A DNA stretch of 64,000 bases from Corynebacterium diphtheriae (lineage in GTDB: Bacteria; Actinomycetota; Actinomycetes; Mycobacteriales; Mycobacteriaceae). Of this stretch, positions 5,124 through 62,867 are shown in pieces; within the stretch, counting starts at the first letter, position 1; each line of letters starts with the position of its first letter. The notes beneath the pieces are model-generated. The model searched no databases. It had not been told where the DNA came from and worked only from the letters and a program-made list of their open reading frames with translations. The position numbers and the translations under genes are program-made. The stretch lies in contig NZ_LN831026.1 of assembly GCF_001457455.1 (NCBI RefSeq), positions 744,001 through 808,000 of the forward strand, written 5' to 3'.

Positions 5124-6410
5124 ATGACAAATCCACAGAACCATGATGACGCCCGCACTTCACCCACCGCCGATCAGACCGCAGCGTTTGATCGGGTGGA
5201 GAATCCTTACGGAAATGCTCACAACGTGCAAGAAGAACAACTAACTGAGCAATCGCAGCCGTTGGGAGCTCAGGAACCCCCTGTACCGCTGGAGCCGGAG
5301 ACGTCGAAACGCGAAAAGCGACGCGTCAGCATCGGCACCGCTGTTGCTATGACGCTGGTTGCTGCCATTGCCTCTGGCACGTTGACTGGGGTTTATTCCA
5401 CAAACCGTGCGGGTAATTCCGGCTCCACTACACGCACGCAGGTAGCGGAATCCTTGCGTCAGCCAGTATCTCAAGATCATCCAGCTCCCGTTGAGGGATC
5501 GGTTGAAGACGTCGCAGCAAAGGTATTGCCTTCTGTCGTATCGATTTTGGTGGCCACTCGAAACGGCTCCGCTGAAGGATCTGGCTCCATTATTTCCGAA
5601 GATGGCTACGTGATGACCAACAACCACGTGGTGGCAGGGGCTGAACAAGGGGCAGCGCGAATATCTGTGACCTTGAACGATGGCTCTGAGCATCCTGCTG
5701 AATTGATAGCTGGCGACCCAAACACAGACGTCGCAGTAATCAAGATCAAAGACGTCAGTGGCTTGCCTGTCATGAAGTTCGGTGATTCCAACAACCTCAC
5801 GGTTGGGCAACAAGTGGTTGCCGTGGGGTCGCCGCTGGGGCTTTCGGCTACGGTCACATCTGGCATCGTGTCAGCGCTGAACCGTCCGGTGCGTGCAGGC
5901 GGCTCCGAAACAGGACAATCGTCGCTTATCGACGCCGTCCAAACCGACGCAGCAATCAACCCAGGCAACTCCGGCGGCCCATTGGTTGATGCCAACGGAG
6001 CCCTCATCGGCATGAACTCCGTGATCGCCTCGCTCAGCGCAGGCGGCAAGTCTGAATCCGGATCCATCGGCCTAGGCTTTGCCATCCCTTCCAACTTTGC
6101 TCGTCGCGTAGCCAGCCAGCTCATTGAGAAGGGTTATGCCACCCAACCCATGATTGGTATTCAGCTCATTTCGAACGCGAACGCCAAAGGTGCTGTAATC
6201 GCCGATGTTCAGCCTGATGGTCCAGGCGCTCACGCCGGATTACGAGCAGGAGAAGTGATCACCAAAATTAATGACCGCCATGTTGATAGCGCCGATGCTT
6301 TGATCGCTGCGGTACGAAGCAGCGATTTTGGTCAAACAGTTAAGCTCACCGTCCGTGGGGAAAACGACCAAAACGAGCGACAGGTCGACGTAACCCTCAC
6401 AGGCGAATAG
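5124..6410 (+). CDS. htrA: Membrane-anchored HtrA-family serine protease with PDZ domain (PepD-like)
   Basis: 428 residues. A charged cytoplasmic tail of about 65 residues precedes one membrane segment (about 70-90), so the protease domain faces outside. The catalytic triad is visible: H168 in T-N-N-H-V-V, D202 in N-T-D-V-A-V, S283 in G-N-S-G-G-P-L. A PDZ domain occupies about 335-425. The family degrades or refolds damaged envelope proteins. Its place after mprAB matches mycobacterial pepD, where the protease is regulated by MprAB and modulates the stress response. One copy of the dispersed CCGTGGGGAA word sits near the 3' end (6353). Confidence 0.9.
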   Translation: MTNPQNHDDARTSPTADQTAAFDRVENPYGNAHNVQEEQLTEQSQPLGAQEPPVPLEPETSKREKRRVSIGTAVAMTLVAAIASGTLTGVYSTNRAGNSGSTTRTQVAESLRQPVSQDHPAPVEGSVEDVAAKVLPSVVSILVATRNGSAEGSGSIISEDGYVMTNNHVVAGAEQGAARISVTLNDGSEHPAELIAGDPNTDVAVIKIKDVSGLPVMKFGDSNNLTVGQQVVAVGSPLGLSATVTSGIVSALNRPVRAGGSETGQSSLIDAVQTDAAINPGNSGGPLVDANGALIGMNSVIASLSAGGKSESGSIGLGFAIPSNFARRVASQLIEKGYATQPMIGIQLISNANAKGAVIADVQPDGPGAHAGLRAGEVITKINDRHVDSADALIAAVRSSDFGQTVKLTVRGENDQNERQVDVTLTGE

Positions 6411-6448
6411 ACTGCTAGATCAAAGTATCTATTACGAGAAGAGACGCC

Positions 6449-7036
6449 ATGGAGATCACGGACATCACCCAAATGGACAACGTGTTCGATTACATCGAAC
6501 CGGATCCTGAGTTTTTCCGCGCTACTGAAGCCGAAGATAATAACTCGGTTCTGGGCGGTCCGCGTCGTGCCCTCGCAGTACTTATCCGAGATCATTCCGA
6601 AAATACTGCGGATAACACGGCGACAGTAGTGGCAGAGCTACTGGGCGAAGGCGGTTTTACCGTGGATGCGGTCGTTGATGTCCAAGCTGACCAGCATCTT
6701 ATTCGAAATGCTATTGAAACAGCTGTTGTAGGTGGCGTGGACTTAGTCCTCACCATAGGTGGCACGGGCGTGAGGCCGCGAGATCATGCACCAGAGGCAA
6801 CACGGGAGGTTCTTGATCAGGAGGTACCTGGTATTGCACAAGCTATCCGCGCATCCGGTTTAGCCTGTGGCTCGGTTGATGCCTGCACTTCTCGTGGAAT
6901 CTCCGGTGTATCCGCTTCCACCGTCGTGGTGAATATGGCAGCCTCACGTTCGGCGATTCGAGACGGCATGGCGACTATGACGCCGTTGGTGCACTACGTC
7001 ATCGATCAGCTGCGCGAATACAGCGTGAACGACTAA
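6449..7036 (+). CDS. moaB: MoaB/Mog-family molybdopterin-binding protein
   Basis: 195 residues. The MoCF-binding fold begins near residue 42 with a conserved G-G-T-G-V-R-P-R-D-H-A-P-E segment at about 109-122 and a T-S-R-G-I-S-G-V loop. Members adenylylate molybdopterin (Mog) or bind it (MoaB). The N-terminal 40 acidic residues are an extension beyond the fold. It follows htrA by 38 bases; the mprAB-pepD-mog order is conserved in mycobacteria, although the functional link between protease and cofactor synthesis is unknown. Confidence 0.8.
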   Translation: MEITDITQMDNVFDYIEPDPEFFRATEAEDNNSVLGGPRRALAVLIRDHSENTADNTATVVAELLGEGGFTVDAVVDVQADQHLIRNAIETAVVGGVDLVLTIGGTGVRPRDHAPEATREVLDQEVPGIAQAIRASGLACGSVDACTSRGISGVSASTVVVNMAASRSAIRDGMATMTPLVHYVIDQLREYSVND

Positions 7037-7065
7037 TTTTTAGGAGAAAGTGGAACAGTCGCAAG

Positions 7066-7251
7066 ATGAAAAAAGCACGTAGAAGGGTTGTGCGTCTATC
7101 AGACGCTGAAGACTACGATCGGAAAGCCGATACCGCGGAATTCGTCTCTGCTATTCCAGATGTTGCAGTTCCTTTGGAAGACGGCGAAGAAGATCAACTC
7201 CAAGGCCTAGCCTTTTGGAAAGACCAGATGCCGCCACATTACGGCTCCTGA
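7066..7251 (+). CDS. Small conserved-looking hypothetical protein, 61 aa
   Basis: Starts with a basic stretch (M-K-K-A-R-R-R-V-V-R-L-S) and turns acidic in the middle (D-G-E-E-D-Q), ending H-Y-G-S. No signal peptide, membrane segment or cysteine. It begins 29 bases after moaB and is followed directly by a bidirectional terminator, so it is probably the last gene of the htrA-moaB transcript. I do not recognise a family. Confidence 0.65.
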   Translation: MKKARRRVVRLSDAEDYDRKADTAEFVSAIPDVAVPLEDGEEDQLQGLAFWKDQMPPHYGS

Positions 7252-7257
7252 AAAATA

Positions 7258-7741: not shown

Positions 7742-7847
7742 GGTTTACAACCTCTTTCTATAAATGTGCGCCAATTACGCTACCGGAATTATCTTTACAG
7801 TTCCAGTGCAAAACTATTTAGTTATGCTTTTTAACAGGGGTTTTGAT

Positions 7848-8531
7848 CTATTCCGTCTTAGGTGGACGCGCTCGTGCTCCAGCGATGACAACTGTGAGCG
7901 GAATAGCGAGAGATTGGGAAGCGACGATTCGTGCTTGATCGGCCGGCAGCGCGATAAGAACAGCGTCCGAACCATAGCTTGAGGTATTTTTCTCTGGCAC
8001 AGGGGCGAAAACTATGACGCCGCCGGCGGCGACAACATGCGGGTCATGAGCGTCGTTAGCTGCGATGACATCAACCACGTCTCCTGGTTGCACCACTCGC
8101 GAGACGGATTGTTCAGCAAGGCGAATGGGGACGATATTGATGGGTTGGTCTTCGCCGAAAGGCAACTGGTTCCCCACGGAGGAAAGCGTGTGACTGGAAT
8201 CGAGAAAATCAACCGCTGTGGCGATACTGCCGGCGGTGTGGGCAGAAATAGTGATGCGTTCGTTGGGGGCTGATGCTAAAAGATCGTCAGGGCGCAGTGC
8301 GTTTTCGGGTATTAAGTGCTGAGGGACATGGGCGGTGGTGAAATGTGTGCGGTTGACGGCGGTGCCAGCTTCGACGGCGGTGGCGTAGCGCAGCACTTCT
8401 GTTGTGGATTCGGTACGGGGAAAAACTGCGAGTGCTAGGGCAAGAATGACAAGGCTTAATGCCAGGCTTCGCCGGAGAAATGTTTCTCGGCGCCTTCCTG
8501 GAGTGCGCAGGATGGATTTAATGGAGGTCAC
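7848..8531 (-). CDS. SAF-domain protein (CpaB/RcpC-like), membrane-anchored
   Basis: 227 residues with an N-terminal basic patch, one membrane segment at about 22-40, then a SAF-like domain (V-E-A-G-T-A-V-N-R-T) and a C-terminal R-V-V-Q-P-G-D-V-V-D-V-I-A stretch typical of the RcpC/CpaB type. In Flp/tad pilus systems CpaB helps assemble the secretion channel, but no pilus gene is nearby. In related corynebacteria a gene of this kind also sits between mscL and fthC. It starts 15 bases after fthC and is probably co-transcribed with it. The role is unknown. Confidence 0.7.
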   Translation of the reverse strand: MTSIKSILRTPGRRRETFLRRSLALSLVILALALAVFPRTESTTEVLRYATAVEAGTAVNRTHFTTAHVPQHLIPENALRPDDLLASAPNERITISAHTAGSIATAVDFLDSSHTLSSVGNQLPFGEDQPINIVPIRLAEQSVSRVVQPGDVVDVIAANDAHDPHVVAAGGVIVFAPVPEKNTSSYGSDAVLIALPADQARIVASQSLAIPLTVVIAGARARPPKTE

Positions 8532-8546
8532 GTAAGTTTCGACGTA

Positions 8547-9137: not shown

Positions 9138-9259
9138 CAGCTTAGAGGGTGTTTATGGTCGTTTCCCCACGGGGAGGGGGCTCAGAATGTGACTTTTAAT
9201 TTCGGTTTTCCTTGGTGCCGAAACCTATCTGGGGCATAGTTCGCGGTACTGTTTTCTTT

Positions 9260-12366: not shown

Positions 12367-13503
12367 GTGTCCGGAACCGTCGTGATCGTCCTGATCGTCT
12401 TGGTGTGGCTCTTCGTGCTCGCACCATGGCTGCTGCGTGGCCAAAAGCCGATCCGTAAAGCCGGTGAGGGATTCGATGATACCCGCGTGGTGTACGAAGG
12501 TGGCAGCGAAGAGCTGCAACCACGGCACCACCCAAAGGTTGGCCCCCATGATGTACACACTGGATATGAGGCCGATTCGGCTGAACATGAGTTGGAATAC
12601 GCCGAAGTAACTGAGGTTATCGAACAATCTGCCGAAGTCGAGGAAGAAGACACTCAAGGACCGCTGATCGATCAAGATCCAGCAACCACGTTGGGTGATG
12701 TATTCGCACACGCAAAAGAAAAGATTGGGGCTAAACGCTCCCGTGGGGAAACTCCGAATGCGTCTGTGATGCCACAGGTTATTGAAGGTGAAATTGTTGC
12801 AGAGCTACCAGCGCCTGAGGTTGTAGCGGACGAAGACAGCGCTCACGACGAAGCAAGCCTTGATGCGGTTGACGATGGTGACGAGGTGGCACGTTACGAC
12901 TTCGATGATGCTTACGTTGGCCCCGATGATCTGATGTACCCCTCCGATAACGATGTGGTTACCTCTCTCGATCGCAGCGAGGCCACAGCGGAACCTGTGC
13001 TCGATGATGACTCTGATCTCACCGATGAGGAGCGTGCGTTTGCAGAGCGACGTAGCCATCGCGGTAGCTGGGATCCAGAATCTGAGGCGCAGGCGGTTGT
13101 AAGCCGTCAGCAGCGTCGTCAGCGGACCGTCATGGGGCTCGGTGCCGCAGTGATCGTCTCGTTGGTTGCAGCCGTGGTTTTCGGCGGTTGGGCTTGGGCG
13201 GGCGCAGGTGGTTGCGCAGGATTGCTGGCATTGTACCTGTGGGCATTGCGTCGCCAAGTTATTGCGGAGCAAGCGCTGCGCCGTCGTCGTATTCAGCAGT
13301 TGCGTCGTGCACGTTGGGGCGTGCGCAACTCGGCTGATGAGGAACTTGGTATCCCGAACCGGTTGCGTCGCCCAGGGGCAGTAGTGCTAGAGATCGACGA
13401 TGAGTCTCCTGATTTTGAATATCTTGACGTTGTGGCTGATTCCCGACGCGACGGGCAAACACCACACTTTGACGGTGCTGATCATCACCGCCGCGTGGGC
13501 TAA
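12367..13503 (+). CDS. glpR: GlpR/SepX-like membrane protein, receptor for Glp
   Basis: 378 residues from GTG 12367, chosen because GGAAAGG lies eight bases upstream; the longer frame from TTG 12286 lacks such a site. A membrane segment at once (V-I-V-L-I-V-L-V-W-L) is followed by a very acidic, low-complexity linker of about 230 residues. Two close membrane helices (about 260-300) and a basic C-terminal region come next. This layout and the locus match GlpR of C. glutamicum, the membrane receptor of Glp at the divisome, and SepX of Streptomyces. One copy of the dispersed CCGTGGGGAA word lies in the linker (12741). Confidence 0.75.
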   Translation: MSGTVVIVLIVLVWLFVLAPWLLRGQKPIRKAGEGFDDTRVVYEGGSEELQPRHHPKVGPHDVHTGYEADSAEHELEYAEVTEVIEQSAEVEEEDTQGPLIDQDPATTLGDVFAHAKEKIGAKRSRGETPNASVMPQVIEGEIVAELPAPEVVADEDSAHDEASLDAVDDGDEVARYDFDDAYVGPDDLMYPSDNDVVTSLDRSEATAEPVLDDDSDLTDEERAFAERRSHRGSWDPESEAQAVVSRQQRRQRTVMGLGAAVIVSLVAAVVFGGWAWAGAGGCAGLLALYLWALRRQVIAEQALRRRRIQQLRRARWGVRNSADEELGIPNRLRRPGAVVLEIDDESPDFEYLDVVADSRRDGQTPHFDGADHHRRVG

Positions 13504-14616: not shown

Positions 14617-16248
14617 TTAACGCCAGCTTGGTAGCCACATCATGGCGTTAAACCATGCGTCTGGAATAACAAATCCATACAGCAGTGGCGAGAAGTAAAA
14701 GAACATTGCGATCACGACGGCGAGATAGCAGATGGCAAGAATTCTCCCCGTGGGGAACACTCGGCCTTTCCAGAATGCGGCTGGGCGGAGGCGTCGATAC
14801 GCTCCTGCGTCCATGAGGTGGTTAAGCGTTATAGCCAGCATGACGATGGTGAACGGGACGAGCGCAGTCGCGTAGAAGAAGTACATTTGGCGGTCGTAAC
14901 TTGCTAGCCACGGCAAAAAACCAGCCATGAAGCTTACCCATGGGATGAGATATTCTGCGCGGCGGCGAATGATCATTTCCCACAGTGCCCAGCACACTAC
15001 AGGTACTGTGAGCCACCAAATCGCAGGAGTGCCAAAGAGGTAAATCATGCGTCGGCACGAGCCAAACGCACAAGAAATATCCGTGCTGGAGTAGTAGAGG
15101 ATCGGGCGGGTAGCGGCAAGCCAGGACCATGGTTTGGAATCCCACGGATGGCTGTGCCCCGAGGACGATGTCAATGAGGCGTGAAATTCTAAGACTTCAG
15201 CGTGATAGTAAAGCCAGCTTGCTACTGCGTCTGGGAATAGCCGAAGAATACTGTTGTCCGCTACATCTCCGGTGGCAACAGCATGTCTAAATACAGAGGT
15301 TTCTGAAGCAAACCATGCGCGCCAACTCCACGTATATACGGCCAGCGGAACGAGAACGAGGGAAGCAAAGGCGGGGAATGCATCCTTGAGTAGCATGCCC
15401 AGCGTGGCGTTACGAGCACCGAAAATACGACGTCGCCATGCGTCGAGGGCTACGGCTAGGATTCCGAAGAACATGATGTAGTACAGTCCGGACCATTTCA
15501 CGGATACCGCGCAGCCGAGGAGCACTCCCGTGGCGAAACGCCACCAACGAAAACCGATTCGAGGCCCCAGATCGGTGTCGAGTAGCTTCTGTGACCATGC
15601 GTTATACATGCGGGCATAGACTTGCTGGTGGTCGCGGCATAGCGTCCAAGCGGCGGTGACAATGAAGAGCACTTGGATGATGTCGAGCATTCCGAATCGG
15701 GATGTGACTAGGAGGACGCCGTCGAAAAGCGCGATGATACCGGCGAGGGTTGCTGCTCGTGAAGATAAAGTTAGGCGTCGGGTAAGCGCCATGATGGCCA
15801 CGATGGTCAGGGTGCCGCACAGAGCGGTCACCGCGCGCCAGCCAAGGGGGGTGTATCCAAATAGTGCTTCACCATAGGCGATGAGTTGCTTGGCGAGCGG
15901 GGGATGGACGACCAGCCCGTAGCCTGGGTTGGATTCGATGCCACCGGTAATGGGGTTGATCCATGATTCGACCATGTCCCAGGCTTGTGGCACATAGTGT
16001 TTCTCGTCGAACACGGGGGTATGCGCGGAGGTCGCTGAGGTAATTCCGATGGCGCGCATGAGAAATGCTGCGATGGTGATGATCGCGGTCGAGATGGTGT
16101 CGTATCGCGACCATTGCAGCGCGTGAGGTGCGTGCGGGTGGGCGGCGCTGGGGAAGCGGGGCGCGTATCGACGCCTCCTAGTCCATGCTGCTGTGAGGCG
16201 ACTGCGTGGTTGGTCCTTGGCGGTATCCGGAGCCGAATGAGAAGTCAC
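14617..16248 (-). CDS. pmt: Protein O-mannosyltransferase (dolichyl-phosphate-mannose type, PMT)
   Basis: 543 residues from GTG 16248 (V-T-S-H-S-A-P-D); an upstream in-frame ATG at 16326 would add 26 residues. About ten membrane helices. Early external loop contains F-D-E-K-H-Y-V-P-Q-A, whose acidic pair is the PMT/GT39 catalytic signature, then H-P-P-L-A-K. The enzyme transfers mannose from polyprenyl-phosphate-mannose to Ser/Thr of exported proteins. It is convergent with the zinc-finger gene (8-base gap) and adjacent to rsmI and betP regions as in C. glutamicum. Confidence 0.9.
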   Translation of the reverse strand: MTSHSAPDTAKDQPRSRLTAAWTRRRRYAPRFPSAAHPHAPHALQWSRYDTISTAIITIAAFLMRAIGITSATSAHTPVFDEKHYVPQAWDMVESWINPITGGIESNPGYGLVVHPPLAKQLIAYGEALFGYTPLGWRAVTALCGTLTIVAIMALTRRLTLSSRAATLAGIIALFDGVLLVTSRFGMLDIIQVLFIVTAAWTLCRDHQQVYARMYNAWSQKLLDTDLGPRIGFRWWRFATGVLLGCAVSVKWSGLYYIMFFGILAVALDAWRRRIFGARNATLGMLLKDAFPAFASLVLVPLAVYTWSWRAWFASETSVFRHAVATGDVADNSILRLFPDAVASWLYYHAEVLEFHASLTSSSGHSHPWDSKPWSWLAATRPILYYSSTDISCAFGSCRRMIYLFGTPAIWWLTVPVVCWALWEMIIRRRAEYLIPWVSFMAGFLPWLASYDRQMYFFYATALVPFTIVMLAITLNHLMDAGAYRRLRPAAFWKGRVFPTGRILAICYLAVVIAMFFYFSPLLYGFVIPDAWFNAMMWLPSWR

Positions 16249-16326
16249 GCGGTTTAGTCTACGAGGTTTGGGTGTCCAACGAAGACTCGGTTGGTGATGG
16301 AAGGGGGTGTTGGGGAGTTTCCCCAC

Positions 16327-16692
16327 GGAGGTGGAAGTACAGTTGCGGCAGGGGTGAAAACTTCTGTTTATGTGACGCCGGTTATAGGGCTTGCGCGCTT
16401 ATGCGCTGCAGGGATTTGTTGTTTGTCGGGGGGTCTGTGCGAGGCGGGTCGGGGGTGATGTGCATATGTGTTGGGCGACCGAAAGTGTGGGATTTTTTGC
16501 AGGAAATCGCTGAACAAGCTCCATTGACAGTCAATCGTTACGCATTTGTGACCATTGATTGGGCTTTTGTATAATTATGCAGGGGTTTTGCTATGTAACA
16601 AGCTGATAAAAATGTGAAGAAACTGACTGATAATCTTCTACTTTGAGCATCCCTGTCTTTATAAAGGTCTTTCTTATCGTCATGATAGATAT
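16327..16692. other. Intergenic region between pmt and betP
   Basis: 366 bases without a credible gene. It starts just past a copy of the dispersed word TTCCCCACGG (16319-16328). The left half is G-rich; the right half is A/T-rich and contains the betP promoter candidate. A G-rich run at 16427-16452 has no obvious pairing partner. Confidence 0.5.
16546..16575 (+). promoter_or_regulatory. Candidate promoter of betP with extended -10
   Basis: TTGTGA (16546-16551), an 18-base spacer and TATAAT (16570-16575) preceded by TG. The perfect -10 hexamer makes this the best candidate. In C. glutamicum betP is controlled by the osmotic MtrAB system; an MtrA site was not resolved here. The leader would be about 110 bases. 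Confidence 0.5.
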
Positions 16693-18684: not shown

Positions 18685-20148
18685 ATGCTCAAAAAAACAA
18701 TTACTATCGCGATGGCGTTCGTCGGAATTGTTATCGGCGCCGGCTTCGCCACCGGCCAAGAGGTACTCCAGTACTTCGTGTCCTTCGGAATGATGGGCAT
18801 TTTTGGCGCGGCGCTATCGGCAGTGATTATGACCGTTACCGGTATGGCATCTATCCAGCTGGGGTCGTACTTCCTAGCTAACGATCACGGCTCGGTGTTG
18901 CGTCGAATCTCGCACCCTATTGTGGCGCGTATTCTCGACGTCGCTGTTTTGACCACCCTATTTGCTACGGGCGTGGTTATGCTCGCAGGTTCTGGTTCGA
19001 ACCTCAACCAGCAGTTCGGTTGGCCGGCGTGGGCGGGCTCATTGCTCATGCTGGTGCTCGTGATGGTCGCGGGGCTTCTCGACGTAGACAAGCTCACTGC
19101 TGTTATCGGATCGATTACACCGCTTATCATTATCTTTGTCATCGTCGCGATTGTGTACGCTTTGAGCACCAGCAGCGCTGACATCGATACTCTTAACCAA
19201 GCTGCGGCAACGATTAACTCCGCGACCCCACACTGGGCGCTAGCATCTCTTAACTACGTTGGTTTGGCTCTTATGATGGGTGTCTCTATGGCGATCATCA
19301 TCGGTGGCAACAATGTTGACCCTCGTGCCGCTGGCCTAGGCGGACTTACCGGTGGCGTGATCTACGGTGTGATGCTGACCTTCACCGCGTTAGCTCTTTA
19401 CCGAGTTGCCGACAAGGTAGCTGCTGACGATGTGCCTATGCTGACCATCATTAACGAGATCCACCCAATTTTGGGCACCGTGATGTCGCTCGTTATCGTG
19501 GGCATGATTTTTAACACGGCGTTGGGCATGTTTTACGCCTTTGCTAAGCGTGCTACTTCCTCACGGAGGGCGCTGTTTTACCCTGTATATTTGATCGCTT
19601 CTGCGTTGGGCTTTGCGGCGTCATTCCTCGGCTTTAAAAAGCTGGTGGGCGTGGTTTACCCGGCACTGGGTTACCTCGGTATTTTGCTTGTTGTTGTGGT
19701 TGCTGTGGCATGGTTGCGTGGCTTTGCCAAGATTCGTGACGAGCGTGCTCGCCGCGACAAAATCCATAACCTCATCAAGCGTAAACTGGATCCTACGAAG
19801 CGTTTTAGCTCGAAACAGCAGCGTCAGCTTGATCGTTTGACGCGTGAATCTAACCTCAAGCCAAGTGAGCTGAAAGAAACGATCCGTGAGGAAGTCGTGG
19901 AAGAACTTGCAGGTGCTGCAGATGGTGATGATGTCGACGCAGTAATCGATGAGGCTGCCGGTATCACCACAACCTACGAGCCGATCGAGTTTGAAGATAC
20001 GACCGTCAGCGTGGAAGATACTTCGCTTGGTCTGCCATCGCATGCGCGTCCTATGTCGGAGCTCGAAGACCTCACTACTTTTGAAGAAGACATAGCTGAG
20101 GAGGCTGCTACTAACACACCAGCTGATAAACCGGCGGCGAAGCAGTAA
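18685..20148 (+). CDS. YkvI-like membrane transporter with acidic C-terminal tail
   Basis: 487 residues. About ten membrane helices up to residue 350, beginning with the G-I-V-I-G-A-G-F-A-T-G-Q-E motif, an unwound first helix typical of the LeuT-fold YkvI group. Then a basic, later strongly acidic cytoplasmic tail of about 130 residues (E-E-V-V-E-E-L-A-G-A). Substrate unknown; amino acids or related compounds would fit the fold. It follows betP by 78 bases, within reach of the same transcript, and a terminator follows its stop. The long tail is unusual for the family. Confidence 0.75.
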   Translation: MLKKTITIAMAFVGIVIGAGFATGQEVLQYFVSFGMMGIFGAALSAVIMTVTGMASIQLGSYFLANDHGSVLRRISHPIVARILDVAVLTTLFATGVVMLAGSGSNLNQQFGWPAWAGSLLMLVLVMVAGLLDVDKLTAVIGSITPLIIIFVIVAIVYALSTSSADIDTLNQAAATINSATPHWALASLNYVGLALMMGVSMAIIIGGNNVDPRAAGLGGLTGGVIYGVMLTFTALALYRVADKVAADDVPMLTIINEIHPILGTVMSLVIVGMIFNTALGMFYAFAKRATSSRRALFYPVYLIASALGFAASFLGFKKLVGVVYPALGYLGILLVVVVAVAWLRGFAKIRDERARRDKIHNLIKRKLDPTKRFSSKQQRQLDRLTRESNLKPSELKETIREEVVEELAGAADGDDVDAVIDEAAGITTTYEPIEFEDTTVSVEDTSLGLPSHARPMSELEDLTTFEEDIAEEAATNTPADKPAAKQ

Positions 20149-39455: not shown

Positions 39456-39718
39456 GAGAATCGTGTGTTCCTTATGTCGGTTTTACAAAGGGGGAGTACA
39501 TCGAAGCATGCGTAGGGCAGTAGTACGCGCTTACATACCCCCACAATGCTAGTGAGTTTCCATCCAAAACGTGCATTATCTCAAGAATGGGTTAATAAAA
39601 TGAGGGTAGAAGTCGATTTTTCTTACCCCCGCAGCTGCGGCGGTGGCAGCTGTCGCCTTCAACGAGCTCTCAGTTATCCATTCCCCACGGAGGGGAGGTG
39701 GCTTGTAGACTCTCTTAA

Positions 39719-43755: not shown

Positions 43756-43859
43756 CCGTGGGGAAAAGAAAGGCATCCATTATCCCAGAAATGGGCAGCC
43801 CGTGGGGAACAAAAAAGGGGGAAGAGCCGTAAGTGTGAATAACTCTCCCCCGTGGGGAA
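43756..43859 (+). repeat. Triple cluster of the dispersed word CCGTGGGGAA
   Basis: Exact copies at 43756-43765, 43800-43809 and 43850-43859, same orientation, spaced 44 and 50 bases, in the intergenic gap between pth2 and the HNH gene. Each is preceded by C or CC and the outer two by T-C-C-C-C. This is the densest cluster seen in the window. Confidence 0.9.
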
Positions 43860-45283: not shown

Positions 45284-45818
45284 TCCTCTCCACCTCGTCT
45301 GCCGCATCTGCGCACACAATTGGCAATTCAGACTGCTCAATTTTAGAAAAAGGCTTCAGTACAAAACTTTTCGGAGCCATCCGCCCTGGTGGACGACCGA
45401 TTCCTATTCCGCCACGGATATAATCCTTTGTTCCCAAAGCCTGCGTGATTGACTTCAACCCGTTGTGCCCGTGGTCCCCACCCCCGTGGCGAAACTTGAT
45501 GGCACCGAACTCCAAGTCTAAGTCGTCGTATAAGACAACGATGCGATCTCTATCTACCGTAAAGAAATCCGCGAGTTTCCTCACGGAAGGGCCCGTAAGA
45601 TTCATAAACGCGCGCGGCTTTGCGACGATAACCTTCTGCGTTCCCAACCGAGTTTCTGCCACTAGCGTGTTGGTCTTTTTATGCACGGTAAGCGTGGCTG
45701 GCATGGGACTGGTTCTCGTGAGGAGTTCGTCGATAGCCATGTAACCGATGTTATGGCGTGTTTTTGTGTATTCCGGTCCTGGGTTTCCAAGGCCGACGAT
45801 CAGATATGGCGAAGTCAC
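45264..45818 (-). CDS. pth: Peptidyl-tRNA hydrolase, first copy
   Basis: 184 residues from GTG 45818, fixed because everything upstream in frame is a shadow of rplY. V-G-L-G-N-P-G-P-E-Y-T-K-T-R-H-N-I-G-Y (catalytic His), L-Y-D-D-L-D-L (Asp) and G-G-G-D-H-G-H-N-G-L-K (substrate loop) are intact. About the length of E. coli Pth, without the N-tail of the other copy. It follows rplY, the order common in bacteria. It hydrolyses peptidyl-tRNA in the cytosol. Confidence 0.95.
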   Translation of the reverse strand: MTSPYLIVGLGNPGPEYTKTRHNIGYMAIDELLTRTSPMPATLTVHKKTNTLVAETRLGTQKVIVAKPRAFMNLTGPSVRKLADFFTVDRDRIVVLYDDLDLEFGAIKFRHGGGDHGHNGLKSITQALGTKDYIRGGIGIGRPPGRMAPKSFVLKPFSKIEQSELPIVCADAADEVERITTSEL

Positions 45819-45837
45819 AAAGGTATTGTGGCAGCAA

Positions 45838-45868: not shown

Positions 45869-45876
45869 GAGAGTTT

Positions 45877-46715: not shown

Positions 46716-48530
46716 TCAACTAACTTGCTGGAGGATGCTTACGGAGAGAGGAGCGACCGTCCACGAGTTCGTTTCAATCTGTTTGTCCGTGGGGAACACA
46801 TGGTCGTCGAGAAGCACTGCGAAGTATCCCTCCGTGGGGATCGAGCGTGGTTGCGTTGAAAAGTTAATGGCGACTGTTGTTTGTTTCCCCACGGAGTAGG
46901 TGAGGAAGTCACCGCTCACGAGCGTTGCTTCGTAGAGCTCGTTGATGTCGTCGTATTCGGTGGGGAACAGCTCGGTGTGTGTTTTTCTGAAGTTGTTGAG
47001 GTCGCGAAGGAGTTGGACGCTGTGGGGGTGTTGTGCGGCGCGGTCGTAGTCGATGGCGTTGATGTGGTCGGGTGAGTTGTAGGAGTTTTCGGTGTTGTTT
47101 TTTGTGCGGGCGAATTCTTGTCCTGCGTGGATGAAGGTGATTCCGCAGGCGAGGTATTGGATGGTGGTGGCGAGTTGGCAGCGTCGGATGAGCTCGTCGT
47201 GAGGCGTGTTGGGTAGGAGGAGGTGGAGGCGGTCGTAGAGGGTGTGGTTGTCGTGGGCTTCGATGTAGTTGACGGTGTGATTGGCGCTGGTGAAGTTGAG
47301 TCCTGGGAGGTGTTGGGCGCCTTTGATGTTGTTGAAGAGGGTCCACATGTGTTTGGGGTTGTGGTCGCCGGTGAGTAGTCCGCGGGAGTTGGAGTGGAAT
47401 GTGCTTCCTTTGAGGGTGTCGCGGAGGGAGTCGTTGAAGTGGGCGATGCGTGGCATGTGGGCGGCGTTGTGTTGGTTGGCTGGGAGGATGTGTGGTGGGT
47501 GGTTGCCGAGGTTCCAGCCTTCGCCGAGGATGATGATGGAGGGGTCGATGGCGTCGAGGGCTGTGCGGATGGCGTTCATGGTGTCGACGTCGTGGATGCC
47601 CATGAGGTCGAATCGGAAGCCGTCGAGGCCGTATTCGGTGGCCCAGTGGGTGACGGAGTCGATGATGAATTTGCGCATCATGGGGTTTTCGGAGGCGGTT
47701 TCGTTGCCGCAGAAGGTGCCGTCGTGGAAGGCGCCGTCGTCGGTCATGCGGAAGTAGTGACCGGGGGCGGTGCGTTCGAGTGGGGAGGTGGTGGTGTCGT
47801 AGACGTGGTTGTAGACGACGTCCATGATGACGCGCAGGCCTGCGTCGTGAAGCGTGCGGATGGTGTGTTTGAGTTCGTCGATGCGCGTGAAGGGGTCGTT
47901 GGAGTTGCTGGAGTAGGAGCCTTCGGGCGCGTTGTAATTCATGGGGTCGTAGCCCCAGTTGTATTGGGCGTTGTAGCTAAGGTCGCCGGTTTCGTCGACG
48001 GAGCCGAAGTCGAAGATGGGCAGGAGCTGGATGTGGGTGACCCCGAGGCTCAGGATGTAGTCGAGGCCGCTGGGGTTGCCAGCGGTGGTGTGGGTGTCGC
48101 GTTCGGTGAGTCCTAGGAAGCGGCCTTTGTTGTGGATTCCGCTGTTGGGAGCGATGCTGAGGTCGCGTACGTGTGCTTCATAAATGATGGCGTCGGTGGG
48201 TTCGCTAAAGGACGGCATGCGGGGCACGGGATGAGATTGCGTGACGACGACCCCATGCGTTCCGTTCGCCGTGACCGCCCGAGCATAGGGGTCTACTGAT
48301 TCTATCGTTTCCCCACGGAGGGAAAGACGGTAACTATACCGTTGACCGTGGCGATCGCCCTTTAGTTTCGCCTCCCATGCCCCATCGCCGATGGGGTGCA
48401 TGCTCACGGTGTGGTTTTCGATGAGGAGGTCAGCGGTTGCGGCGTCGGGAGACCAGACTCGAAAACAGGTGTCCCCGTGGGGAGTGAGGAAGGCGCCGAG
48501 TTGGCCGGTGTAGGAGTTGGTTGTGGTCAT
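46716..48530 (-). CDS. pulA: Type I pullulanase (GH13), cytoplasmic
   Basis: 604 residues, no signal peptide. N-terminal CBM48-like domain (about 10-95), then the GH13 barrel with Y-N-W-G-Y-D-P, the type I pullulanase signature; nucleophile in D-G-F-R-F-D, acid in I-L-G-E-G-W, and I-E-A-H-D-N. It would debranch alpha-1,6 links in glycogen. Codon third positions are much richer in C than in neighbours, which leaves long antisense frames. Four dispersed words lie in or just before it, one forming its ribosome site (48547). Confidence 0.88.
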   Translation of the reverse strand: MTTTNSYTGQLGAFLTPHGDTCFRVWSPDAATADLLIENHTVSMHPIGDGAWEAKLKGDRHGQRYSYRLSLRGETIESVDPYARAVTANGTHGVVVTQSHPVPRMPSFSEPTDAIIYEAHVRDLSIAPNSGIHNKGRFLGLTERDTHTTAGNPSGLDYILSLGVTHIQLLPIFDFGSVDETGDLSYNAQYNWGYDPMNYNAPEGSYSSNSNDPFTRIDELKHTIRTLHDAGLRVIMDVVYNHVYDTTTSPLERTAPGHYFRMTDDGAFHDGTFCGNETASENPMMRKFIIDSVTHWATEYGLDGFRFDLMGIHDVDTMNAIRTALDAIDPSIIILGEGWNLGNHPPHILPANQHNAAHMPRIAHFNDSLRDTLKGSTFHSNSRGLLTGDHNPKHMWTLFNNIKGAQHLPGLNFTSANHTVNYIEAHDNHTLYDRLHLLLPNTPHDELIRRCQLATTIQYLACGITFIHAGQEFARTKNNTENSYNSPDHINAIDYDRAAQHPHSVQLLRDLNNFRKTHTELFPTEYDDINELYEATLVSGDFLTYSVGKQTTVAINFSTQPRSIPTEGYFAVLLDDHVFPTDKQIETNSWTVAPLSVSILQQVS

Positions 48531-48600
48531 GGTGGGGTTCTCCTTCCCGTGGGGAAACTGTGCAGTTGTTTATTGTCTCATGATGGGTGGGTAGAGTGAG

Positions 48601-52166: not shown

Positions 52167-53243
52167 GTGAATAATAACCCGCTTGATTCTTCTTCTCAGC
52201 CACAACATCTTCCACTGCCTGGGCCTGGTCCCGTGTGGTTCCCCTCGGTGATGGGTACGGGCATTTTGGCGAACTTGTTGCAGATTCACGCTGAACGTCT
52301 GCCTGGTGCACATGATCTGGCTTTGGCAATCCTCATCGTGGCGTGGGCATTGCTGTTATTTTTAAGCGTTGGTTTTATTGTTCGTGTGATGCGGGATCCG
52401 CAGGTTTTTACGGCTTCGGTTCGTGCGATGACGGCGCTACCGTTTTGGTCCACAGTGTCGATGGGCTATTTGTCTGTGGGGTCGGCGTCCACAGTGGTCA
52501 TTCCGTCATATTTGCCGCAGTGGCACGATTCGATTTGGGTAGTAAATACGTGGATGTGGGTGTTTGGAACTGTCGTCGGCGTATCTACGGCGCTAGTTTT
52601 TGCGTTCCGACTTATTGGAGTAGATCGTGGTGATCCCACGACTGTGTGGGGGCTGGCAGTAGTGGCGCCGATGGTGTCGTCGACTACTGGCGCTAATTTG
52701 GCTGCGCACGTTCCCCACGGGGTGGTGTTGTGGCTGCAGGTGGCCTCGGCGGCGTGTTTCTTCTTGTCGTTTTATGCGGGTGCTGTGATTTTCTCGTGTG
52801 TGTATCACCACTTTTGGCGAGTTGCTACGATCCCTGTTGCTGCTTCGGCATCAGCATGGATTCCGCTGGGCATGGTAGGCCAGTCGACTGCGGCTGCTCA
52901 GGCGATGGCGTTGCAAGCAGAACACGTCCTTGTTCAGGGGTTTGGGCAGTCGGTTCATCAGATTGCGCACACCTATGGCTGGATTATGGTTGTCGTAGGT
53001 ATTCCCATGGTGGCGTGGGCGTGTGCGATTACGCTTCGCGGTTTTCGTAAGCGTATGCCGTTTAGCCCTGGTTGGTGGGCGTTGACGTTCCCCATCGGTA
53101 CTTTGGCGTTGGGGGCTACGTTGCTTGGTGCGGGTACTCAGATTCAACCCTTGGTGTGGCTGGGTGCGGTGGGGACGTTGTGCCTTGTGGGGACGGTGAC
53201 GTTGTGCTTGGTGGCGTCGGCACGCGCGGTGCTGCGTGGGTAG
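52167..53243 (+). CDS. TDT-family transporter (TehA/Ssu1-like)
   Basis: 358 residues from GTG 52167, ten predicted helices. G-P-G-P-V-W-F-P-S-V-M-G-T-G-I-L-A-N near residue 20 is a TDT landmark, and the internal repeat of helix pairs is visible. Family members export sulfite, malate or tellurite. The divergent LysR gene is its likely regulator. The next gene (2-hydroxyacid dehydrogenase) starts 24 bases after it, suggesting a shared transcript and an organic-acid theme, but that is inference. Confidence 0.82.
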   Translation: MNNNPLDSSSQPQHLPLPGPGPVWFPSVMGTGILANLLQIHAERLPGAHDLALAILIVAWALLLFLSVGFIVRVMRDPQVFTASVRAMTALPFWSTVSMGYLSVGSASTVVIPSYLPQWHDSIWVVNTWMWVFGTVVGVSTALVFAFRLIGVDRGDPTTVWGLAVVAPMVSSTTGANLAAHVPHGVVLWLQVASAACFFLSFYAGAVIFSCVYHHFWRVATIPVAASASAWIPLGMVGQSTAAAQAMALQAEHVLVQGFGQSVHQIAHTYGWIMVVVGIPMVAWACAITLRGFRKRMPFSPGWWALTFPIGTLALGATLLGAGTQIQPLVWLGAVGTLCLVGTVTLCLVASARAVLRG

Positions 53244-53267: not shown

Positions 53268-54197
53268 GTGAAGTACTTTATGGGTCCACATGTATGGCAG
53301 CGCACGATTGCTGATCTTGAAGCGCTGGGGCATCAGCGCGTCGATACGCTTGAGCATGCTGAGGCTTACATCAATACGGAGTCGCGTCCGCTGCGGATCC
53401 CTACAATCCCAGATTCAGTTAGTTTTGTGCAGCATTGTTTTACAGGCGTTAATCAGCTTATCGACGCCCATGTGATCACCGATACTGGGGTTCGCTGGGC
53501 AAATATGGCTGGTGGCTTTGCACAACCGGTTGCTGAATCCGCCTTGGGGCTTATGCTTTCGCAGGCACATCACCATAAGGCTTTTGCGCTTGCAGGAACG
53601 TGGCGGGTAGCCCGCGATCTTGATCGAAGCCAGCAGTGGCTACATTCGGTAGGGGAGCCGCGTTGCGTGGTGATCTTTGGTGCGGGCGGAATCGCTAAAG
53701 AACTGATCCGTCTCTTAGAACCTTTTGGCATGCATGTGATTGCGGTGAACCGTTCTGGTCGCAGCGTGGCGGGTGCTGATGAAACCTTCGCTATGAAAGA
53801 TGCGCATGCGCTCTGGTCGCGTGGGGATTTTATTGTCAATATTTTGCCGCTTACCCAAGAAACCAAAGGGCTAGTTGATCGCGATGTGTTTGCACAGATG
53901 AAGCCTTCTGCGATCTTTATCAACGTAGGCCGTGGTGCCACTGTTGTAACCGACGACCTTGTCGATGCCCTCCAACGAGGCGTTATCGCTGGTGCTGGCT
54001 TAGAAGTGGTCGACCCCGAGCCGTTACCAGATTCTCACGCGTTACACAGCATGCCGAACTGTACGATCACTCCGCATATGGCAGCTTCTGATCATGTAGC
54101 CGAACTTCATGTGGCGCGGATTTTTGATGCGAATGCCCAAGCTTTTACCCGTGGGGAAACGATGCCAACGGAGGTGAATCCGCACTTAGGTTATTAG
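53268..54197 (+). CDS. D-isomer-specific 2-hydroxyacid dehydrogenase family protein
   Basis: 309 residues from GTG 53268. NAD-binding G-A-G-G-I-A-K-E in the middle (about 134-141), then N-V-G-R-G-A (catalytic Arg) and T-P-H-M-A-A-S (catalytic His) near the C-terminus. The N-terminal catalytic half is short. Substrate unknown; placement after the TDT transporter may point to a hydroxy- or keto-acid. One dispersed word near the 3' end (54149) codes T-R-G-E-T. Confidence 0.85.
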   Translation: MKYFMGPHVWQRTIADLEALGHQRVDTLEHAEAYINTESRPLRIPTIPDSVSFVQHCFTGVNQLIDAHVITDTGVRWANMAGGFAQPVAESALGLMLSQAHHHKAFALAGTWRVARDLDRSQQWLHSVGEPRCVVIFGAGGIAKELIRLLEPFGMHVIAVNRSGRSVAGADETFAMKDAHALWSRGDFIVNILPLTQETKGLVDRDVFAQMKPSAIFINVGRGATVVTDDLVDALQRGVIAGAGLEVVDPEPLPDSHALHSMPNCTITPHMAASDHVAELHVARIFDANAQAFTRGETMPTEVNPHLGY

Positions 54198-54222: not shown

Positions 54223-55833
54223 ATGCAATGGCGTCTTTTTACTCGGCCGAATCAGGTTCCTCCACGCATGGTGACGTGGTCGTGGCTTGCGCCGGCCACT
54301 CCCTCGGTTAGTCGTGACTGTTTGCCACCTCGTGGATGGGGTTCGGGGCCGAAGGCAGCATGGTCAATATTGTGGATGTACCCGTGGGTGAGTATCTACA
54401 CGGTTGCAGTGATGATCGCTTCATCGCTGGCGTCGGTGGGAGTGTCGGCGGTGATAGGCCGCGCGGTTGACGGCACGCTAGGCAGTGGAACGCTTGCCGA
54501 CGCTCTAGCTCCGATGGCTGGTGTCGCAGCATTTTTATGGATGGTGTACCTGTGTCAGTCCACCGCTGATGCAGTGACTGAGATCGCTATTCAGCGCGGT
54601 GTTCACCATGTGCGTTTCGCGCTGGTGCGACGTCTTTCTACCTCTCATCCGAGCGATCTCACCCCAGGTCAGCTGTTAAATACCGTGGACGAGGATGTCC
54701 AACAGTTGGTCAGCGTGAAGCAGAATTTCAGTTTTCCCGTGGCCATGTTTGCCTATCTTTTGGGCACCGTGGTGGCCATTGCGCAGTTTTCGCTTCCACT
54801 GGGCGCGGCCGTGCTAGGAGGTGGCGTGGCCACGGCGGCAGTGTCTTATTTCACGGGTAAGGCGATTACAAAAGTTTCTGGTCAGCGGCGCAATATGGAG
54901 TCCGAGTCGGTGTCGTTGGCTACAGATTTAGCCCAAGGTGGGCGCGTGGTTCGAGGTCTGGGCGCGGTCGATGCTAGTGAACAGCGTTTCGACGCTGCCA
55001 CTGCGGCCGCGTTGGCGGTCATGCTTCAAGACGCGAAGGTGTCTTCCATTACCACCTTGATTCGCCAAATGATCCCGATGATTTTTACTCTCGCGGTGCT
55101 GTCCTACGGCGGATGGCTCACGATGCATGGGGACATTTCTTCGGGACAGTTCCTCACAGTAACGCTGCTTGCCGTTCCAGCACTTTCGATTACGGGATAT
55201 TCGTTGGGATTTCTTACCGACTTCTGGGCACGCGCGGTTGCCAGCGGACGTCGTATTAACAAGCTGTCGGAGCAACTGGCCCAACCTCGCCACGGGGAAG
55301 CACAGCGCAGTATCCACGTTGACTCTGGACTCACAGTTTGGGCGCCTACGACTCCTCGTGCACGAGAAACAGTGCACGAACTTACGGAACACCTCGTCCA
55401 GCACCGTGGAGCTATTGCTGCACCGCACGCTGTCAGTGTTTTCCAAGGCACGCTTACCGACAACATCGATCCGTTACAGCAGCTTTCGTCTGAAGAAATA
55501 GAGCAGGTGATTGAGGCTAGTTGTAGTACCGATGTAGTGAAACGCCTTGGTGGCGTTCCCCACGGGGGAGTGCCGAGTGCCCTTATCGGAGAATCCGGCC
55601 TCAACTTGTCTGGCGGCCAACGCCAACGTGTCGCCCTAGCGCGGGTATTGGGGATGAATCCAGAGATTTTGATTCTGGATGAGCCCACAACGGGGCTCGA
55701 TGCTGTGACTCTTGATCGCGTGACGGCACATGTGAAGGAGTTTCGTCAAGGAAAGACCACGATTGTGATTACGACTTCGCGGGCGTGGGCAGCGGTGGCT
55801 GACACGGTTATTGATGATAAGGAGCTGGCATAA
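54223..55833 (+). CDS. ABC exporter subunit with degenerate ATPase domain lacking Walker A
   Basis: 536 residues. Six membrane helices (about 50-345), then a shortened nucleotide-binding domain. From the first strand (L-T-V-W-A-P, 370) to the Q-loop (V-S-V-F-Q-G-T, 404-410) is about 35 residues instead of some 75, and no G-x-x-G-x-G-K is found. L-S-G-G-Q (462-466) and L-D-E-P-T (485-489) are intact, but the H-loop is T-T-S-R. It directly abuts the partner gene, so a heterodimer is expected. No frameshift is visible: the frame is open end to end, so the shortening looks evolved. Confidence 0.85.
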   Translation: MQWRLFTRPNQVPPRMVTWSWLAPATPSVSRDCLPPRGWGSGPKAAWSILWMYPWVSIYTVAVMIASSLASVGVSAVIGRAVDGTLGSGTLADALAPMAGVAAFLWMVYLCQSTADAVTEIAIQRGVHHVRFALVRRLSTSHPSDLTPGQLLNTVDEDVQQLVSVKQNFSFPVAMFAYLLGTVVAIAQFSLPLGAAVLGGGVATAAVSYFTGKAITKVSGQRRNMESESVSLATDLAQGGRVVRGLGAVDASEQRFDAATAAALAVMLQDAKVSSITTLIRQMIPMIFTLAVLSYGGWLTMHGDISSGQFLTVTLLAVPALSITGYSLGFLTDFWARAVASGRRINKLSEQLAQPRHGEAQRSIHVDSGLTVWAPTTPRARETVHELTEHLVQHRGAIAAPHAVSVFQGTLTDNIDPLQQLSSEEIEQVIEASCSTDVVKRLGGVPHGGVPSALIGESGLNLSGGQRQRVALARVLGMNPEILILDEPTTGLDAVTLDRVTAHVKEFRQGKTTIVITTSRAWAAVADTVIDDKELA

Positions 55834-61500: not shown

Positions 61501-62385
61501 ACGGAAAACTCCTATGACCGTCTTGCTACGATCGCGCAAAACAACGATCTTGGTGCTGGTATGGCGGTGGCCATGAAAGACTTGGAAATGCGCGGTGCCG
61601 GCAATGTGTTGGGCGCGCAACAGTCTGGTCATATCGCCGGAGTGGGCTTTGACCTGTATGTTCGTTTGGTGGGAGAAGCGGTCGAGGCATACCGTGCGCT
61701 AGCAGATGGCAAGGTTGCCGATGCCACGGAGCAGGGGCCGAAGGAGATCCGCATCGATTTGCCTGTCGACGCCCACATCCCCGAGGACTACATCAACTCA
61801 GAACGATTGCGCCTTGAGGTCTATCGTAAACTTGCCGCCTCGGCCAATGATAAGGACTTGGCGCTTGTGGTTGAGGAAATGAAAGACCGCTTCGGTCCCG
61901 TTCCCCACGAGGTAAGGCGGCTGCTGGCGGTGTCGCGCCTGCGTCACTTAGCACGCGCGACAGGGCTAAGCGATATTGGTGTGCAGGGCACACGCATCAA
62001 GCTGCACCCAGTGGAATTGACTGATTCTAAGCAGGTGCGTCTCAAGCGTCTGGCACCGTCTGCTACATATCGCGCTGCTGCTAAGGCCATCCAGGTGCCA
62101 TTTCCTAAAGAAGGCGCGAAGGTAACGGACAAACAGCTTCGCGATGTTGAACTATTGCAGTGGGTTGCTGACTTTATAGCGGAGATGTTTGAACACGATC
62201 GTGTATCTGTGACAGGGGAGAAGCTGCCGGATAAAGTGATCTCGGTGGCGCAGCCCATGAGCCCTGCTGCGGCGCGTGCGGAGCGCGTAGCGCAACGGGC
62301 AGCGGCGCGCAGACAAGCGCGAAATGACGATGAGGACTACGAAGATCGTAGAGAAGCGCGACGTAGGAAATACCGTATGCGTTAA
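58585..62385 (+). CDS. mfd: Transcription-repair coupling factor
   Basis: 1266 residues. UvrB-homology region in the first third, RNA-polymerase-interaction domain near 500-580 ([13 protein letters not shown]), then RecG-like helicase motifs: G-D-V-G-Y-G-K-T-E (Walker A, about 675-683), D-E-E-Q-R-F-G-V (DEEQ) and Q-L-R-G-R-V-G-R (motif VI). It removes stalled RNA polymerase and recruits UvrA. Start has GAAGGGAGGG; a variant of the dispersed word (TTCCTCACGA, 58566) lies in the leader. C-terminus has a basic tail. Confidence 0.96.
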
Positions 62386-62409
62386 TCGTTGAGCTACCCC
62401 CTCCATTGA

Positions 62410-62439
62410 CACCCAGTGTTATGTAGAACACACTGGGTG
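62410..62439 (+). repeat. Hairpin between mfd and the first YbjN-like gene
   Basis: CACCCAGTGT (62409-62418) and ACACTGGGTG (62430-62439) form a ten-bp stem with a short loop. The right arm ends two bases before the GTG start at 62442 and would bury its ribosome site, so translational control is as likely as termination. Confidence 0.55.
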
Positions 62440-62441
62440 GT

Positions 62442-62867
62442 GTGGACACCTACATCACCCGCGAATCGCTGCAAGCGATACTCAACAAGCTCGATATTGA
62501 TTCCGCCATCGACGACGATGGCCTCGTCGGTGCTGGATTCCCCTCCGGAGAAACCGTCTTCATTATCGACGACACCCTAGTTACCGCCCGCACAAACTGG
62601 TACGGGATTATTCCCGACCACAAGCAGCAAGAAATCGAAGAGCTCATAAACTCCACTAACGCTCGTGTCCCCGTGGGGAAACTCATCCCCGTCGTGATGG
62701 GCGATGGCACCAAAACATTGGAGTTTCGGCTGCACCTTCATCAATCGCATCCGCTGTCTGACACGCAGCTATGCCAAATTCTTGATGCCTACTTCCAGCT
62801 CGCCTTCCACTGCTTTGACGCAGCGCTCATGGTGACTACTGGTGCGGACTTAGAACAGGAGCAATAA
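62442..62867 (+). CDS. YbjN-domain protein 1
   Basis: 141 residues from GTG 62442. YbjN-like alpha/beta fold: an N-terminal helix followed by I-D-D-D-G-L-V-G-A-G-F, W-Y-G-I-I-P-D, and a C-terminal helix ending H-C-F-D-A-A-L. Proteins of this type are type III secretion chaperone-like or sensory. The gene is immediately upstream of a second YbjN-like gene (two-base gap). One dispersed word (62671) is inside. Confidence 0.7.
   Translation: MDTYITRESLQAILNKLDIDSAIDDDGLVGAGFPSGETVFIIDDTLVTARTNWYGIIPDHKQQEIEELINSTNARVPVGKLIPVVMGDGTKTLEFRLHLHQSHPLSDTQLCQILDAYFQLAFHCFDAALMVTTGADLEQEQ

Follow-up and report, generated by a model that had tools for sequence, protein, structure and literature searches.

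The closest described systems are those of ParB with parS and of Noc with its Noc-binding sites (NBS), whose sites carry the half-site TTTCAC or TTTCCC, the Noc site being TATTTCCC-GGGAAATA (PMC7383237). About 70 NBS are distributed over most of the chromosome (PMC4331003), and parS sites lie near the origin, with up to 20-23 of them in some species (PMC7333895). Phage HNH homing endonucleases, free-standing and intron-borne (Mob, I-HmuI), bias the inheritance of flanking DNA (PMC2988022), and architecture-imparting sequences (AIMS) are described as genome-wide or strand-polar words (PMC3164646). Here a cloud of a short DNA word around a single gene is described in a 64-kb stretch of the Corynebacterium diphtheriae chromosome (positions 744,001 to 808,000 of NZ_LN831026.1; hereafter the window, with coordinates counted from its first nucleotide). 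The word, TTCCCCACGG, is very probably the DNA sequence recognised by a predicted nuclease, P0001, whose gene lies at 43927-45090, and the cloud appears to be under selection. This assignment is based on the centring of the cloud on the gene, an almost diagonal table of words and loci in relatives, the accumulation of words at the nuclease promoter, the retention of words between species and the movement of the cloud with the gene. No earlier description of such a gene-centred word cloud was found in the open-access literature searched. The features of the gene are the following.

43927..45090 (+) nuclease gene N1 (387 aa, P0001), putative ParB/Noc-like DNA-binding domain and HNH nuclease motif, cloud centre
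43927..44325 (+) N-terminal predicted DNA-binding domain, residues 1-133, eight predicted helices
44008..44094 (+) predicted helix-turn-helix, residues 28-56 (second helix 42-56)
44782..44925 (+) HNH nuclease motif, residues about 286-333 (C289, C294, H304, H305, N319, H327)

The window contains 28 exact copies of TTCCCCACGG between 6353 and 62680, the number given in the original prediction, vs an expectation of 0.14 from 100 dinucleotide shuffles, none of which reached 28; an order-3 Markov model gives 0.28. Orientation is mixed, as had been stated (13 copies on the + strand and 15 on the - strand). The first 30 kb contain eight copies and the remainder 20, and this previously noticed rise in density is explained by the approach to the cloud centre. 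The single-change variant TTCCTCACGG is over-represented as claimed, although the recount gives 12 copies instead of 11. The word core is TTCCYCACGGR and the half-site is TTTCCC; the near-dyads reported at 39802 and 40263 are present (TTTCCCCACGGGGGAAA and TTTCCCCACGGGGGAAG). Regular spacing of the words was tested and gave no consistent signal. All copies listed below as word or variant are exact matches.

6353..6362 (-) word copy TTCCCCACGG
8170..8179 (+) word copy TTCCCCACGG
9163..9172 (+) word copy TTCCCCACGG
12741..12750 (-) word copy TTCCCCACGG
14748..14757 (-) word copy TTCCCCACGG
16319..16328 (+) word copy TTCCCCACGG
19557..19566 (+) variant TTCCTCACGG
19884..19893 (-) variant TTCCTCACGG
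23778..23787 (-) word copy TTCCCCACGG
26034..26043 (-) word copy TTCCCCACGG
30229..30238 (+) word copy TTCCCCACGG
30339..30348 (-) variant TTCCTCACGG
32460..32469 (+) word copy TTCCCCACGG
35108..35117 (-) variant TTCCTCACGG
35281..35290 (-) word copy TTCCCCACGG
35589..35598 (+) word copy TTCCCCACGG
36854..36863 (+) variant TTCCTCACGG
37036..37045 (-) word copy TTCCCCACGG
38304..38313 (+) variant TTCCTCACGG
39681..39690 (+) word copy TTCCCCACGG
39801..39817 (+) full dyad TTTCCCC-ACG-GGGGAAA, includes word copy 39802..39811 (+)
40257..40273 (-) near-dyad, includes word copy 40263..40272 (-)
41334..41343 (-) variant TTCCTCACGG
41571..41580 (+) variant TTCCTCACGG
42397..42406 (-) variant TTCCTCACGG
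42626..42635 (-) variant TTCCTCACGG
43242..43251 (+) word copy TTCCCCACGG
43756..43765 (-) word copy TTCCCCACGG, upstream of nuclease gene
43800..43809 (-) word copy TTCCCCACGG, upstream of nuclease gene
43850..43859 (-) word copy TTCCCCACGG, upstream of nuclease gene
44217..44226 (-) variant TTCCTCACGG, within nuclease gene
45577..45586 (+) variant TTCCTCACGG
46787..46796 (-) word copy TTCCCCACGG
46885..46894 (+) word copy TTCCCCACGG
48309..48318 (+) word copy TTCCCCACGG
48547..48556 (-) word copy TTCCCCACGG
52711..52720 (+) word copy TTCCCCACGG
54149..54158 (-) word copy TTCCCCACGG
55556..55565 (+) word copy TTCCCCACGG
62671..62680 (-) word copy TTCCCCACGG

Along the whole genome (2,463,666 bp), 50 of the 58 exact copies of TTCCCCACGG fall within 600-1000 kb and eight in the other ~2.06 Mb, which rules out a genome-wide word. 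Their density is highest at about 42-45 kb of the window. With a refined profile, 600-1000 kb contains 99 sites above 12 bits, with 29 in the 780-800 kb bin, 17 and 6 in the flanking bins, 0-3 per bin in 600-660 kb and 0-1 in 940-1000 kb. The dnaA domain is located at 0.6 kb and the GC skew, sampled at 100-kb intervals, changes sign between 1.2 and 1.3 Mb, so the peak at 0.79 Mb marks neither the origin nor the terminus, and its map position excludes a word of either kind. The mapping relative to oriC and terminus, which the original prediction had proposed, thus reveals a regional word with a mid-replichore peak. A peaked-density fit blind to genes places the cloud centre at 786.5 kb (bootstrap 781-788), with the nuclease gene at 787.9-789.1 kb. 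The genome encodes two nuclease paralogues, each with a cloud of its own, at 788 and 868 kb; the second has a fitted centre at 867.5 kb (865-870.5), with its gene at 868.1-869.3 kb. The distance from centre to nuclease is 0.4-1.4 kb in four fitted clouds, those of two relatives (G080 and G055) having been fitted on stretches already cut with the nuclease gene in the middle. Copies of TTCCYCACGG number 23 on + and 23 on - to the left of the gene and 10 on + and 16 on - to the right, and a strand-polar word is ruled out on each side, in line with the earlier view that this is not a polarity word. Outside 600-1000 kb, the eight copies of TTCCCCACGG compare with a genus mean of 7.6 (137 in 18 same-genus genomes). 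The word is neither avoided nor enriched there, a background level that fits a benefit dependent on linkage.

Nuclease homologues (E<=0.001) are present in at least 216 of 242 genus genomes. Counts of TTTCCCCACGG across 151 genus genomes are 35 in the source genome, 38 in G055, 41 in G080 and 18 in G124, with the remaining 147 at 0-6 each. In these three relatives the copies again form one main cluster each (in G080, 65 of 74 places listed). Each cluster contains a homologue of the window nuclease, ranking first among the matches listed in G055 and G080 and second in G124. Identity to the window nuclease is 57% in G080, 57% in G055 and 35% in G124; the G055 protein is 99% identical to one of Corynebacterium pseudotuberculosis. 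The nuclease loci of the source genome and G080 are non-orthologous. The counterpart of the G080 locus in the source genome (1.751-1.763 Mb) has no exact copies, and the counterpart of the source locus in G080 (2.289 Mb) has one exact TTCCCCACGG and no TTCCTCACGG in 20 kb, compared with 15 and 8, respectively, at 780-800 kb of the source genome; the counterpart 20 kb in G124 has no exact copies. Only four words of 760-820 kb can be aligned to G080, which shows three to five differences or a gap. Since non-orthologous loci carry clouds and orthologous regions do not, the cloud is tied to the place of the gene, and an effect of the chromosome region is ruled out. The suggestion of a chromosome-wide architecture or generic recombination word, made in the original prediction, is not borne out: the word is restricted to the surroundings of one gene, drops to one and zero exact copies in the orthologous 20 kb of two relatives that carry the nuclease elsewhere, and is at background level outside the cloud.

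Each subgroup of these nucleases appears to have its own word. Forty-two nuclease-centred 20-kb stretches were compared with 40 control stretches; the loci comprised 40 hand-picked from the matches listed (mostly those nearest P0001, plus two of G145) and the two of the source genome. The word of each locus was its best 8-10-mer after dropping a genome-wide family (CGTCGAT and variants). A word with log10P < -10 was found in 21 of the 42 nuclease stretches vs 2 of the 40 controls (L132, L026); at -9 a third control (L138) passes, with no additional nuclease locus. The three control passes are one array resembling clustered regularly interspaced short palindromic repeats (CRISPR), with a 61-bp period, and two forms of a genome-wide word, two variants of the family having slipped through the filter in controls. 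The CRISPR-like array, in L132 (G080:C1:1500001-1520000), consists of 16 copies of a 10-mer at 7824-8739. In G145 the control word, TTTCCCCACGG reversed, occurs 9 times on one strand and is perhaps another local word or repeat.

The window nuclease and its relatives have the word CCGTGGGGAA, and the second paralogue of the source genome has CTAGGAGG, with 43 copies in 20 kb. Further cloud words are CTAGGAGA, AGTTAGGAG, CTTCAGGAA, CCCTTGAAG, ATATCTAG, TGTGCAGAA and ACTCCCGGA; ACATCCGG, with 13 and 11 copies at two orthologous loci, is weaker and failed the cut-off. When counts of 10 words are tabulated for 29 of the 42 loci, the result is close to diagonal: a cloud locus contains 6-43 copies of its own word and 0-5 of the words of other systems, except for the similar pair CTAGGAGG/CTAGGAGA, which overlaps (8-10), and controls have a mean of at most 0.42 and a maximum of 3. 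Most words, aligned in orientation, end in GGA or GAA-like purine runs (profiles at a lax threshold). The more alike two nucleases are, the more alike are their words (Mantel p 0.002, 12 loci, computed on the protein outside the helix-turn-helix, with hand-aligned consensus words, one of them shared by three loci). The test did not single out the helix-turn-helix, which was thus rejected as the sole specificity region; suggestive patterns within it are GRY/GRW with CGTGGGGAA and W-GS with TAGGAG. On a tree of 41 nucleases, from which that of locus L080 was excluded because it is broken, cloud presence switches 5 times, fewer than in all 500 shuffles.

Retention of the words between species argues for selection. 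Within 10 kb of the nuclease in G080 and G055 (86% identical), 18 of 19 G080 words are intact in G055 and 18 of 20 in the reverse direction, compared with 25% of random 10-mers and, among neighbouring 10-mers, 20/112 (18%) and 28/120 in reverse. Between G080 and G217, 18 of 19 words are intact both ways vs 46% of random 10-mers and 51/114 and 49/114 neighbours. Retention extends far from the gene: at 0-5, 5-10, 10-20, 20-40 and 40-70 kb, G055 keeps 10/10, 8/9, 9/11, 8/10 and 7/9 of the G080 words (beyond, 0/1), and G080 keeps 10/11, 8/9, 9/11, 8/10 and 7/8 of the G055 words, with neighbouring 10-mers kept at 10-37%. In the other clouds, the words kept (neighbours in brackets) are 14/20 (35%), 18/20 (52%) and 14/14 (28%) for CTAGGAGA; 14/20 (16%), 10/14 (13%) and 10/12 (45%) for AGTTAGGAG; 5/8 (15%), 4/8 (16%) and 7/7 (46%) for CTTCAGGAA; 13/22 (20%) for CTCCCGGA; and 5/10 (15%) for ATATCTAG. 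Retention exceeds that of neighbours in every alignable cloud pair compared, weakly so for ACATCCGG (11/11 with 73% and 11/13 with 72%). Of 287 words in 11 clouds, 242 are wholly inside predicted frames vs 260 expected from coding density. Since the words lie on both strands and in several frames of unrelated genes, selection acts on the DNA, as the original prediction had held, and since retention is far above that of neighbouring sequence, mutation alone is insufficient.

The words also accumulate at the promoter of the nuclease gene. Across 20 clouds, the 400 bp upstream of the nuclease contain 29 words, compared with 9 downstream of it and 9.1 expected at flat density; some of these clouds are mutually orthologous, and the first possible start codon was taken as the start. 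The protein probably binds the copies before its own gene and could thereby regulate itself. The remaining copies extend as a cloud about 100 kb to either side and, judging from the comparisons above, are kept by purifying selection for some presumed benefit. The matching DNA-binding protein for which the original prediction had proposed a search is thus likely to be this nuclease.

Several observations limit this interpretation. Clear clouds are lacking at half of the homologue loci examined, and more distant family members look cloud-free at the sensitivity used. Around DUF222 proteins of other genera (20 loci, 14 genomes) no convincing word clouds were found, with only L158 (CGCCGTTGCC, log10P -10.6) passing the -10 threshold and L169 (CCCTGCAGGG, -9.2) passing -9. 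In G217 the nuclease (L080, G217:C1:200175-220174, about 9400-10650) is fragmented by in-frame TGA stops and its cloud is intact, indicating either that the loss is recent or that the cloud has another use.

P0001 starts directly with its putative DNA-binding domain, which appears to resemble the DNA-binding domains of Noc and ParB in predicted fold. No Pfam match to the ParB N-terminal/CTPase domain was found at E<=10, with HMMER filters that discard most weak matches. The HNH residues listed above are invariant across 52 aligned sequences. The Pfam HNH score of P0001 is 16.6 bits, below the 21.4 cut-off; two of eight relatives exceed it (23.9, 23.1) and six are below (17.6-21.2). For DUF222 the score is 14.7 bits vs a cut-off of 24.4, which leaves P0001 outside that family. 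The full-length structural model is poor (predicted local distance difference test score, pLDDT, 63.8), and a fold search with it gave no match. A search of a viral structure library returned nothing significant, and three cloud nucleases had no match to PADLOC anti-phage defence models at E<=1. Carriage by phages or plasmids was considered and rejected: there was no phage record, and three weak matches to Tsukamurella plasmids involve mainly the HNH part.

Among the neighbours of the nuclease gene are housekeeping genes, for example prfC, pth, prs and glmU (named by Pfam matches). Peptidyl-tRNA hydrolase genes are found on both sides of it (43104-43733 and 45264-45992), a pair that may hint at the route by which the nuclease gene arrived. 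The second nuclease of the genome precedes a folP-like gene by seven genes when long non-overlapping frames are counted, and the same spacing is given by the tags of HNH endonuclease ERS451417_00880 and folP2 ERS451417_00887 (PMC8857904).

A nuclease that simply cut its own sites on the carrier chromosome would erase the words, since an uncut copy would serve as the template for repairing a cut one. The words have not been erased and so must help the DNA carrying them; they are local, not genome-wide like uptake words, and so would help only when linked to the gene. Such linkage-dependent help implies competition between gene-bearing and gene-less stretches, in entry (drive) or in resistance to replacement (shield). 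The most likely mechanism, tentatively proposed here, is selfish linked-site drive. A chromosome piece with the nuclease gene would enter a related cell without it, and freshly made nuclease would act on the words of that piece by nicking, cutting or blocking degradation. This would raise the chance that the incoming piece is recombined in, and the reward would be restricted to words physically linked to the gene.

A shield, in which the protein bound to resident words would block or abort strand exchange so that gene-less incoming DNA could not replace the locus, is an unlikely alternative, equally selfish and linkage-dependent and protective rather than invasive. It accounts for the locality, the absent orientation and frame preference and the selection in cis; binding without cutting would be enough, and avoidance of the word is not seen in the rest of the genome, but the conserved HNH residues are left without a role. 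Less probable again is a host chromosome-organisation domain, in which the protein, like ParB, Noc or MatP, would coat the region and thereby organise or segregate it. The predicted ParB/Noc-like fold, the NBS-like half-site and the numerous sites in a single region are consistent with this reading. It is opposed by the mid-replichore position, with the GC skew flip at 1.2-1.3 Mb; by the tracking of the gene to non-orthologous places; by the 0-6 copies of TTTCCCCACGG in 147 of 151 genus genomes; by the two clouds with different words formed by paralogues in one genome; by the lack of a Pfam ParB N-terminal domain; and by the absence of exact copies of TTCCCCACGG within 140 kb of the mirror position on the other chromosome arm.

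A bacterial protein is made near its gene, and nearby sites trap it first. Decoy or autoregulatory sites could in this way capture new nuclease, tune its level and reduce toxicity, and the accumulation of words before the gene agrees with this; dozens of separately kept sites up to 70 kb away would, however, be a costly way of tuning one gene where promoter changes suffice, and the decoy explanation is as doubtful as the organisation domain. A mutational imprint, written by error-prone repair of nicks made by the nuclease near its own gene, would produce locality and mixed orientation, but the interspecies retention of words far above neighbours requires selection and makes it very improbable. 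An ordinary word (base composition, promoter, restriction, uptake, Chi, FtsK-orienting polar sequence (KOPS) or chance) can practically be dismissed: nothing favours it except the count itself, for which just 0.14-0.28 copies are expected, and against it stand the regional distribution, the lack of strand polarity on either side of the gene, the centring on nucleases in four clouds and the absence of a methyltransferase, the other partner proposed in the original prediction, from a Pfam scan of 19 other window proteins around the gene.

If linked-site drive is indeed at work, it would be a bacterial equivalent of meiotic drive in which a distance scale is built in; under the architecture reading, the clouds would represent a new mobile centromere-like system. 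The larger proposal, for which the chances fall somewhat short of even, is a new kind of selfish gene, in which a ParB-like reader nuclease stamps its own word over 100-200 kb, the word shifts with the reader and linked words bias inheritance, so that chromosomes would hold several such one-gene territories. The analysis links a common corynebacterial gene family to its probable DNA targets without experiment and gives a predicted binding word for each of about ten nuclease subgroups. It indicates that one gene can be accompanied by sequence constraint that depends on position and reaches housekeeping genes tens of kilobases away, and the clouds offer a natural series for studying the joint change of DNA-reading specificity and targets.

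Another over-represented word, CGTCGATA, was set aside as genome-wide (examples in the window at 9379, 14792 and 18598). It is often inside GCTTATCGACG (29 in the window vs 3.4 expected) and varies between species, with forms such as GCTTTTCGAC and GCTTTACGAC. The AIMS octamers G(A/T/C)GGGGGA and (T/C)GGGGGAG, a different word from TTCCCCACGG, occur in the window 10 times on the + strand and 2 on the - strand, which fits a leading-strand bias.

Chi, KOPS, DNA-uptake words and AIMS resemble the cloud word as short over-represented DNA words. Chi, KOPS and uptake words are genome-wide or strand-polar, whereas the cloud surrounds one gene and has no polarity. The matS sites of MatP, tens of sites over hundreds of kilobases that define the terminus, are similar in number and spread, but the cloud, at 0.79 Mb, is away from the terminus and tracks a gene that changes place. 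Unlike restriction-modification systems, the nuclease has no linked methyltransferase (same Pfam scan). The 13E12/DUF222 HNH proteins of actinobacteria, for which we know of no established function, are distant sequence relatives according to a profile search that is partly circular, with two DUF222 proteins in the query alignment; P0001 is under the DUF222 cut-off, and the 20 DUF222 loci lack convincing clouds. Homing enzymes act on the allele lacking them, at one or a few sites, and the carrier allele has no cleavable site; here, dozens of conserved words surround the gene on the carrier chromosome, which places the system outside the definition of homing. ParB-parS and Noc-NBS share with the cloud many sites and apparently a similar predicted DNA-binding fold, and the half-site TTTCCC is common to the Noc site (PMC7383237) and the cloud word. 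Unlike ParB and Noc, the cloud protein has an HNH motif and no detected ParB N-terminal domain. Its paralogues have different words, its sites are asymmetric and degenerate, two clouds occur on one chromosome, and the position of a cloud follows its gene rather than the origin.

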